From assembly GCA_938083195.1 (NCBI GenBank), contig CALKCK010000015.1, positions 1-64,000 of the forward strand: 64,000 nt of DNA, in the 5' to 3' direction. This DNA comes from an uncultured Pirellulaceae bacterium (lineage in GTDB: Bacteria > Planctomycetota > Planctomycetia > Pirellulales > Pirellulaceae). Within the stretch, counting starts at the first letter, position 1, and each line of letters begins with the position of its first letter. This document shows, one piece after another, positions 1 to 4,133 of the stretch. The notes beneath the pieces are model-generated. The model saw only the letters and a program-made list of their open reading frames with translations. It made no database searches and had not been told where the DNA came from. The translations under genes and the position numbers were made by a program.

Positions 1-903
1 CAATGCGATAACCCCGCCGTGATCGCTTGGCTAACAGCGATAGACGACAAACTCTACACCAAGCTAGTCAACGCCGGCCTAGTACCACAGAGACGACAGC
101 AGAGCCTCTCACAACTATTCAATGAGGTACTAGCCTTAAGAGACTTGAAGCCTGGCACAATCGAGAACTACACGAAGCAATTCGAGAGGTTTACAGGCTT
201 TCTAAACGATAAGCTAGTTAAAGACGTTACCGAGGCTGACTGTCTAGCCTTTGCCAACTCCCTAACGGTTGCACCAGACACAAAGGCCACGACACTTCGA
301 AACATCAAGCACGCCCTAGCTGCTTCGTCTGAGATAGTCGAGAACCCTTTTAACCGCATAAATACGAAGCGTCCGGCTCCTGACACCTCGAAGCGTAGAC
401 TGATCGACAGGGCCACCATTCGCCAGTGGTGCGATAAATGCACAGACAAGGAGTTTGCCGCTGTCTTAGCTTTAGGAGGCTTACAAGGCTGTAGAGTACG
501 CTCTGAGCCATCTGTGCTTGAGTGGCAGCATGTCTCCTTCGAGGGTGGTACAATAAACATACCAGCAGCTAAAACGAAGAGCCGGATAACGCCCCTGTTC
601 GCCGACACCACGAAGTATCTCAAGGCATGGCACAAAGAGCAGGGACAACCTAAAGAAGGCTTAATCTTCCCGAAGCTCGTAACACAGCACACCCTCATCG
701 AGAGAATGAAAAGGCTAACAGGACTGAAGATTCCTAAGGTGTGGATCAACCTGCGATCCAGTGCCGAAAGTCACCTCGTATCGGAAGGATTCCCGCTTCA
801 TACAGTGGCTACTTGGTTAGGCAATTCCCCCATCGTGGCCGCGAAACATTACCTACAAATATCGCCTTCATCGTTCGAGGAAGCTAAGAAGATCGGCAGC
901 TAA
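1..903 (+). CDS. Tyrosine recombinase/integrase, 5' end outside window
   Basis: Site-specific tyrosine recombinase, probably the integrase of an integrated element. The frame is open to base 1 and a GTG at 19 is only an internal candidate, so the N-terminus is likely missing. A SAM-like core-binding domain (PGTIENYTKQFERF onward) is followed by the catalytic domain: the first Arg lies in GCRVRSEPSVLEW and the second in NLRSSAE. The His of the usual HxLRH box is Ile here, and the LGHS box reads LGNS, followed by the nucleophile region AAKHYLQ. From memory, this variant pattern is common in planctomycete integrases, so it does not by itself imply inactivity. Leucine CTA codons look frequent compared with the neighbours (not counted). 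The gene runs tail-to-tail into the truncated comEC, which fits insertion of its element there. Confidence 0.85.
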   Translation, partial: QCDNPAVIAWLTAIDDKLYTKLVNAGLVPQRRQQSLSQLFNEVLALRDLKPGTIENYTKQFERFTGFLNDKLVKDVTEADCLAFANSLTVAPDTKATTLRNIKHALAASSEIVENPFNRINTKRPAPDTSKRRLIDRATIRQWCDKCTDKEFAAVLALGGLQGCRVRSEPSVLEWQHVSFEGGTINIPAAKTKSRITPLFADTTKYLKAWHKEQGQPKEGLIFPKLVTQHTLIERMKRLTGLKIPKVWINLRSSAESHLVSEGFPLHTVATWLGNSPIVAAKHYLQISPSSFEEAKKIGS

Positions 904-906
904 ATT

Positions 907-960
907 TGTCACACACACTGTCACCTCACCATAGGTGCAACGGCCTGAATCAGTGTGACA
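907..960. repeat. Imperfect inverted repeat between integrase and comEC
   Basis: TGTCACACACACTG at 907-920 faces CAGTGTGACA at 951-960. The outer six bases (TGTCAC/GTGACA) pair perfectly; the inner part pairs only with a 4-base offset. It lies just after the integrase stop and just before the chimeric 3' end of comEC. It could be part of a recombinase-binding arm or an att site, or a weak terminator shared by the two convergent genes. There is no T-run, so a site for the recombinase is slightly favoured. This is inference. Confidence 0.3.
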
Positions 961-3237
961 TTAAGAGCAAATAACCCGACGAAAGGCGTAAACACAGGGA
1001 TTCAAGGCTGTCTCTATAACACTATTGGCGTTGTCATTCCCACGAATCCCCTCGCGGGGCGGATTGAGAATATCAAACCGAATCTTTGACGATGAAAAAG
1101 GTTGATCTCCGATTGAGACTGCAACGACCTCGACGCCCTTCTTTTCCAGAACAGCTAATAACTCCTGCACTTGCGAAGATTGGTCCTTCAGCATCACAAA
1201 TGAGACAAATACTTGATCGATCGAAAACTGCCTCACCAATTGGGGTAACGCATTAAAATGATCGACATCAGCATGTGAAATTACCACTGCATCAACATGC
1301 TCAATCCCCTCATACCATAAAGCACCGGCAATGCTTCTGGCACCGTAATCTGGTGAACCGAGTGAACCGGAATCATAAAGGACATTTTTCCCGTCAGGCA
1401 ACTGAAGCAATACACTAGAACCATGTCCGACATCGAGAAAAGTACAAACGAATTCTTCGCTGCGCTGAACACTTCCCTTGCTACTCCATCTCGCTGGAAT
1501 CATCCACGCAAATATCAACCAAGCCATCAAGCAGAATGGCAGCCATTTACTTCTTATTTTTGTTTCAGGGTAGATAACCAACAAAAACACACCAGTATAA
1601 AACAGCACCACCGACCAACCTGGCGGGCCAGCGGTCCAGAAATGCCCGAGAGGCACCGATTGAAAAACTGCGACCCCCCATTCGATCAACCCTAAACTAA
1701 ATCTACAAAGCTCTCCGAACACTGTCGCCAGCGACGGCAAGAACGCCCCCAACACTAGTACTGCCAACCCACCGTACAAACTGACGGCGATTGGAATGAG
1801 GAGAAGCGGATTAGCTACCAGCGCCACCGGCGCTATCAAATGAAAATGATAAGCAACCAACGGCAAAGCGATCAGCCAAATCACGAAACTTACTAAAACA
1901 GCCATGCGACACTGTCGAACCGCCCAATTTCTAATCCGAACACAAGGAGACCGAGTACCAGAAATTAACCTCTGAATTGGGTCGACCTCAGGTTTCCCAA
2001 AAATCCACTCAGCACTGACGGTCAACGAGGCGACGGCAAGAAATGAAAGCTGTGGACCAATTCCAAAAAGGTCACTGGGGTTGAGAACTAATACGATAAA
2101 CCCCGCAATCGCGAGCAAATTAAAAGAAAAATCCCCCTCCCCCAAAAGCCGGCCAAGACAGTACAAGGTCACCAGAATAGACGCTCTTAACGCCGGTGGA
2201 CGAAACTCAACGAGCCACGCATAAAACAGGACGAACATGATCGTTAACCATAGACTTTTCCGTCGGCTAAGAACTCCGACACGAAAAAAACAAAAGAACG
2301 ATCCAGCTAAAATGCCAACATGAAGACCAGAGATCGCCAACAGGTGAGCAGTCCCTGTTTCCAGAAATTGCTGACGTCGACCACGTGACAGTTGCTCTCG
2401 ATTACCGAGTAAAATCGCGGACGCAAACCCTGACTCCGGGCTTGGAATATACTGCCAAGTCAATTCGTTTAGTCGTCGCCTCAAACTTGAGATCCAACGC
2501 GCGGTTAACCAATTCGCTGTTTCAACCACGCTGACACTCTCGGCTTGATAAGCGTGGAGAAATGCCCGCTTGGATTTACCGCGATAATACTCCTGGAAAT
2601 CAAAGCCTCCGGGGTTACTCGATGGCGAACTTTTGATCAAGTATCCAAATACTTCAATCTGATCCCCCGAATGAATACCGCTAACAGATTGGTGAATCAC
2701 AAGATCACAAATCCCACCTACACTTGTCCAATCCAAACCATCTCTCAGACGATTCACCTTCAAAACCAAACGCGTCTTCATTTCCGTTTCGTGATGGGAA
2801 TCAAAACCTGTTTCCGAGACCATCCATAACGGCTCTGAGATCACCGTGGCTTCTAGACAACACGGCCTCGACAACTCCGTGGCGAATTGGCCAATTTCAT
2901 TCTGTGAATACCAATTCCAACGACCATGATGCCAAAACGAACCGGCTAATACGAATCCAACAAGAAGAATGGTTGAAGCGATTCTCTCACGCTTAAACGC
3001 CGAATCAGAACGACGGTGCAGCCAATCCTCTCGAGAGTTTATTGTGCATCTCCGCGCGAGCAGCCAACCGACCAAACACAACCAAGCTGAAAAAAAAGAG
3101 AAACGCCAGTCAATGTCCCACTCTCGGTCAATAAAGATACCAGCCGCAAATGCAACCACCACGAGTAGCATTGGCTGGTAAGACGGCCGGGATCGAATGG
3201 CCGCGGATTCGATTTTATCGGGATCTGACGAGCACAT
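961..3237 (-). pseudogene. comEC: ComEC/Rec2-type DNA uptake channel, 3'-truncated
   Basis: ComEC forms the inner-membrane channel for single-stranded DNA during natural transformation. The order seen is N-terminal membrane segments with a DUF4131-like region, the Competence domain (AISGLHVGILAG), further membrane helices, then a metallo-beta-lactamase domain with LDVGHGSSVLLQLPDG and the HADVDH motif at about residues 655-660. The protein then stops about 100 residues later. Family members normally continue after NDNANSVI with a beta-strand, a GDL motif and a late His motif; here the frame continues with ETALNPCVYAFRRVICS and ends. The homologous part therefore seems to stop near 1018, close to the integrase. 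The start is ATG 3237 with GGAG five bases upstream; a TTG at 3261 is less likely. It is probably inactive, although the membrane part is intact. Confidence 0.8.
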
Positions 3238-4133
3238 GCCAACTCCACCGAGGACATCCAACTCTTGTTTCCGAACTCATTACGAGATTTTAGAATACCA
3301 GATCCGTAGCGAACTGGCGAAACAATGCTTGCACGCAGCTAATTTTTACCGTTCTGCAAAGCTCCAACAAACCGAGCGTTCCCAAAAACGCAACGCATCT
3401 ACCAGTAAAAGCCGACTTCAAACTGACTAACGCTAGAGCAAAGGCAATGGTTCATTTTTGGCTTCAGAGCAAACTCTCGTAAAAACCAACAACGTTTTTT
3501 GCTCACAGCCTGATCGTGACCGGTATTCTCGCTCGTTGGTTAAGAAAGATCGAGCTCACGCAAAGCGCATAAAAAAAGTCACAGCATGTCGCTCCATCGT
3601 CATGCTATGACTCTATCCTGGTTGCGAAACAGTCCGTGTCTCGCCCTCCCGGCGTCTTGATCTAAAGTGTTTATCGACTTGTCAAATCGCAAACCGTAAA
3701 AAATTTGCAGTAAAGTCAGTGGTTAATCCGCGTCGCCGATACAAGTTAACATTTCAGTTCTGGATCTAAGGACTACGAAAAGATTAATGCTTGCAGGGGA
3801 AGCCCATTTCTAGCCTGTCGCTTAACAAATCACTGCAAACCATGCTTAGATCACCTTCCTTCCCCACGTTTTTTTCTTCGGGTTAGCGGAGACGAACGAT
3901 TTTCAATTCAATTCAACCCTCTCAATTACCTCCAAATTGGTTTGGAATCGGCCTGACCCAAAACGTCAAACAAGCTGCGGCTCTAAAACGTCCAGGTGCC
4001 CAAATCGGTCCGTTCAAAACACTGCCACGCATCGGTAAGGCATTTATTTCGGCTATCCGATCCTTTATCCTGAAAACGGAGTTAATCCGGACGCACCTAG
4101 GAGTGTGCAAATTGCCAGGGAGAGAATGGATTC
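3238..4133. other. Long intergenic region without a supported protein gene
   Basis: About 900 bases lie between the divergently transcribed comEC and GIY-YIG genes. Short frames on both strands have no recognisable content and no good ribosome-binding sites. The one structured element is the minus-strand hairpin with T-run at 3571-3611. The stretch must contain the promoters of both flanking genes, but I could not assign them with confidence. Confidence 0.6.
3571..3611 (-). terminator. Minus-strand intrinsic terminator-like hairpin with no gene upstream
   Basis: On the minus strand an 11-bp stem, GTCATAGCATG/CATGCTGTGAC with a 12-base loop, is followed at once by seven Ts (A-run at 3571-3577 on the plus strand). 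The only imperfect pair is G-U if the minus strand is transcribed but C-A if the plus strand is, which favours a minus-strand RNA. No protein gene ends upstream of it, so it may end a small RNA. A TTGACA at 3680-3685 (minus strand) has a weak TAGATC 15 bases further on at 3659-3664, which would give an RNA of roughly 80 nt. The promoter guess is weak. Confidence 0.5.

Follow-up and report, generated by a model that had tools for sequence, protein, structure and literature searches.

At the left end of the stretch of DNA analysed here (64,000 nucleotides, hereafter the window), a comEC gene breaks off within a conserved domain, next to the gene of a recombinase. The question is what interrupted this gene, and where the rest of it is. 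Our results suggest that a mobile element has very probably integrated site-specifically into comEC of a marine, Mariniblastus-like planctomycete by means of its own tyrosine recombinase. The gene is split, the junctions are exact, the frame can be restored and a recombinase lies at one end. The source of the window is a draft Pirellulaceae genome of 68 contigs (91.9% complete, with 0.7% contamination, given as 0.74%), in which it takes up bases 1-64,000 of contig C15. Its first 1,020 bases are element DNA, and since the left edge of the window is the end of C15, the remaining part of the element is absent from this contig.

The window carries a truncated comEC

The comEC open reading frame (961-3261, minus strand) encodes 766 aa from a TTG start. 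Its native 5' part, codons 1-747 (1021-3261, minus strand), encodes the DUF4131 and Competence domains together with the initial half of the metallo-beta-lactamase-like nuclease domain, in which the HADVDH motif lies; up to residue 749, it has 81% identity to the uninterrupted gene of a close relative. In the Pfam search the truncated protein matched DUF4131, Competence and just positions 2-70 of the 196 in the Lactamase_B profile. Across the 60 relatives used for the ComEC alignments, residue 749 is where most alignments end, although in most of these relatives the frame stays open for about 840-920 aa. Among named genomes, the nearest comEC genes are those of Mariniblastus sp. and of other Pirellulaceae metagenome-assembled genomes (74-81% identity over residues 1-749). 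Two close relatives carry an intact ComEC of 861 aa, with about 80% identity to the ComEC of the window up to Ser747, which is the last native residue. The half-domain and the longer frames of the relatives confirm the claim of the preliminary description that this ComEC is truncated after a family-like part, and the 861-aa genes are the uninterrupted relatives that it had proposed for comparison.

After Ser747, the frame continues for 19 foreign codons and a stop (VIETALNPCVYAFRRVICS; 961-1020, minus strand), which are encoded by the element and have no counterpart in the intact relatives. This foreign tail had been recognised before, although with a length of 17 residues; the count was short because the first two residues of the tail, VI, resemble the native IV.

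The missing 3' part lies on a second contig of the genome

With the last 120 residues of the protein from a relative as the query, the genome gave a single match, on contig C41 (79% identity, E 2e-60). The 114 missing ComEC residues are encoded there at C41:95,639-95,989, on the minus strand, and C41 ends 521 bp past this detached 3' part. An ABC-transporter permease gene (628-1446, plus strand, of the C41 locus L032) adjoins the detached part, and a homologue of this permease flanks the 3' end of the intact comEC in the relative locus L003, in the same convergent arrangement. The strand and the gene order of both comEC halves therefore give the arrangement C41, element, C15. The missing C-terminal region thus exists, as had been predicted, with a strand and gene order that fit the other side of the insertion; the expected place, left of the window, turned out to be beyond an assembly gap, on C41.

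Both halves meet at an 8-bp core

The two break points have in common the sequence ACTATTGG, with an identity of exactly 8 bp and no longer. One copy is located at 1021-1028 of the window, at the integrase-side junction, and the identical copy at 1843-1850 of L032, on C41. By a simple estimate, the chance of such an exact 8-bp identity at the break points is about 1e-4. Joining the two flanks at this core produced a single open frame of 866 codons, encoding 861 aa from the TTG and with an end like that of the relatives; the sequence across the join is NDNANSIVWMMEYGGKRILLPGDLE, the same as in the relatives. Since the joined flanks restore an unbroken 861-aa comEC, no gene sequence was lost. 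In support of this, L003 has an empty site, CATCCAAACAATACTGTTGGCGTT, whose sequence agrees with the left flank as far as the core and, from there onwards, with the right flank. The core itself falls in the codons of the conserved NDNANS motif, in the beta-lactamase-like nuclease domain of ComEC. The direct repeat that the preliminary description had asked for is therefore present at both junctions, and joining at it restores the full frame. The same description was right in placing the insertion inside comEC, although its break point, near 1018, has to be moved to the core. Overall, its reading of an integrative element inserted in comEC is supported by the half on C41, by the intact relatives and by the ACTATTGG repeat.

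From these junctions we infer that the element's own site reads CTCTATAAC-ACTATTGG-TATGGTAAC. The tyrosine recombinase of the element would carry out the integration into comEC, with the crossover taking place within the core, which would be duplicated to both ends of the element while the gene sequence is fully conserved. Such an event would leave comEC as 747 native plus 19 foreign codons and a detached 3' part of 114 codons, with the element between them, and exact excision would be predicted to restore comEC.

The element and its recombinase

The recombinase frame (1-903, plus strand) encodes 300 aa and is open at the left edge of the window. The preliminary description had put 57 bp between its stop and that of comEC, and this distance is correct. 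The protein was assigned as a tyrosine recombinase (integrase) by its Pfam domains (Phage_integrase, E 2e-9, and a SAM-like domain, E 1.3e-8) and by its match to phrog_1 integrase in PHROG (E 2e-24). It aligns with residues 59-371 of a 407-aa homologue from the same genus, with 34% identity, and since the full-length homologues have 407-440 aa, approximately 58 N-terminal residues must lie beyond the end of C15. All four catalytic residues (Arg, Lys, Arg and Tyr) are kept, as GCRVRSE, AKTKSR, NLRSS and KHYLQ align with the homologues, and at the Arg position the recombinase has the NLRS/NLRA pattern of its family. Both active-site His positions are replaced, as occurs throughout the planctomycete family.

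This family of recombinases is common in the Pirellulaceae and their order: 52 of the 99 relatives compared have a match at E <=1e-10, the closest reaching 36-38% identity at most. A degenerate-pattern scan found no relatives in the viral contigs, none were found in the phage records, and the plasmid matches were just two, both remote (about 25% identity).

The recombinase reads towards the end of the element, and 117 bp separate the end of its frame from the core. Between the integrase and the core, the right end of the element (904-1020) contains two copies of TCACAC/GTGTGA (at 909 and 953). Counting both sides of the core, four TCACAC copies lie at a distance of up to 112 bp from it, compared with a mean of 0.45 per stretch of equal length in the rest of the window. 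Having been spotted post hoc, these copies give a weak hint of possible arm-type recombinase sites. On the far side, beyond the core copy on C41, the element has a 133-aa open-ended frame (L032 1973-2371, plus strand), which starts 122 bp beyond the core and runs into the end of C41. This frame had no Pfam, PHROG or phage match, and gave just two marginal matches among 395 genomes.

No contig overlapping the end of C15 or C41 was found, and the viral contigs contained neither a free or excised form of the element nor a match to the 24 bp of the predicted attP. A 19-bp match to this attP, present in two related phage contigs, is inside a phage gene and has no integrase homologue beside it, and was therefore taken as chance. 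Note that, since the interior of the element falls in the assembly gap, its two ends are linked only through comEC, the core and the gene order, and no single contig or read crosses it. The element would be prophage-, satellite- or ICE-like.

Other explanations for the split gene

One possibility accepts the insertion as real and competes only with its continued mobility: the element could be an old, immobile remnant in a decaying comEC pseudogene. In its favour, the integrase is truncated and the remaining element is unseen. However, the truncation is simply the contig end, and neither comEC half contains a stop or a frameshift, with both keeping approximately 79-81% identity to the nearest relative. 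Since intact halves at this identity indicate an insertion that is recent on that time-scale, we consider an old remnant quite unlikely.

A transposon in comEC, with the 8-bp repeat as its target-site duplication and the recombinase as cargo, is highly improbable. It is true that 8 bp is a common length for a target duplication, and that the comEC insertion in another planctomycete genome, G053, combines an 8-bp duplication with 11-bp terminal inverted repeats and an IS1-type transposase. Nevertheless, the two ends of the element studied here lack terminal inverted repeats (TATGGTAACAG versus GTTATAGAGAC, read inward; the comparison covers the ends, the interior being in the gap), which led us to reject the repeat as a transposon duplication. 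Moreover, a tyrosine recombinase gene lies at the junction and points outwards to the element's end, where an integrase is usually located.

Finally, an assembly or binning artefact, with C15 chimeric or C41 from a second strain, is hardly credible: while the draft has 68 contigs and both of these end less than 1.1 kb from the junction, each comEC half occurs exactly once, strand and gene order agree, the 8-bp core is common to both, the full-length frame is restored and contamination is low, so that two independent chimeric joins would have to yield this very pattern.

Consequences for ComEC and DNA uptake

Site-specific integration into comEC, the reading that we prefer, leaves the nuclease domain incomplete: the 5' part keeps HADVDH, and GDLE and HHGS are encoded on the detached part. 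The ComEC nuclease domain requires two metal ions (PMC12455585). In the domain from Moorella glycerini, Ala substitutions at H598, D600, D602, H603 and D700 cut or abolished nuclease activity, and equivalent changes of metal ligands in the Legionella ComEC abolished transformation (PMC12455585). By motif mapping, HADVDH would correspond to H598 to H603, the lost GDLE to D700 and the lost HHGS to H725 and S728. As GDLE is gone with its metal-ligand Asp, and HHGS with its His and Ser, loss of DNA uptake is likely; the insertion would thus probably switch uptake off in this host, and the corresponding proposal of the preliminary description is a well-founded prediction. Note that a ComEC without the Lactamase_B domain exists in some bacteria (PMC6299819); some channel function might therefore persist, in principle, in the truncated protein. 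The same genome encodes DprA, PilT-family ATPases and a helix-hairpin-helix protein that resembles ComEA but scores below the curated cut-off; the comEC split is therefore a natural disruption in an otherwise equipped background.

Known parallels and other interrupted comEC genes

Disruption of comEC by integrative elements is already known elsewhere, and the planctomycete case adds to that kind. As cited in PMC10383233, phage 1207.3 integrates in the pneumococcal comEC/celB and impairs transformation, and its induced excision restores comEC and a low level of competence. Both cases involve a mobile element in comEC. However, 1207.3 is a known phage of an unrelated host phylum whose effect was measured, whereas here the effect is predicted and the element is recognised from its ends. 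The Variovorax paradoxus prophage VAI-C_pp_2 also combines a tyrosine recombinase with an attB in comEC/Rec2 (PMC9658991, Table 2), although it differs in motif, core and host, and is a 42-kb siphovirus-like prophage. Read on the opposite strand, its att sequence, GCTGCCGTGGTGCGGC, can specify PHHGS, which is also a conserved motif of the nuclease domain; conserved codons for that domain of ComEC may thus serve as attB for two unrelated elements.

Other competence genes (comK, comYC/comGC, comFA and comM) are disrupted by prophages or islands in many species, and such disruption was argued to shield the elements against removal by transformation (PMC4774983). Those elements are likewise site-specific in competence genes, with other targets; in the part of PMC4774983 considered here, comEC is not among the disrupted genes named. 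In Piscirickettsia salmonis, comEC is broken while other transformation genes are intact, but there the agents are transposable elements and the disruption is irreversible according to its authors (PMC12955456).

In our survey, which covered comEC only, at least two other planctomycete genomes, G118 and G053, have a comEC interrupted by unrelated elements. In G118 (Pirellulaceae), an interruption of approximately 3.9 kb, at about 2333-6223 of L102 (G118:C1:402000-412000), lies within a 6.25-Mb contig and carries a 575-aa large serine recombinase; ComEC residues ~463-615 are missing. In G053, a 4.8-kb transposon sits at the conserved QPP motif (1942-6737 of L076, G053:C236:14000-22500). Its 8-bp duplication is TGGCCCAG and its 11-bp terminal inverted repeats are GGCACTGTACC; apart from the transposase, it encodes an HTH protein with a weakly Gp49-like neighbour, a possible toxin-antitoxin pair.

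It is tempting to speculate that comEC is a recurrent, selected target in the Planctomycetota, where different recombinases would converge on conserved ComEC motifs and block curing by transformation, and where reversible excision would act as an uptake switch. We regard this proposal as unlikely. For the Planctomycetota, a literature search that linked natural transformation and competence with prophages gave no relevant paper. With the present case, a planctomycete joins the bacteria in which an integrative element disrupts the DNA-uptake channel. With a defined attB, the excision rate becomes measurable in any read set from the source population.
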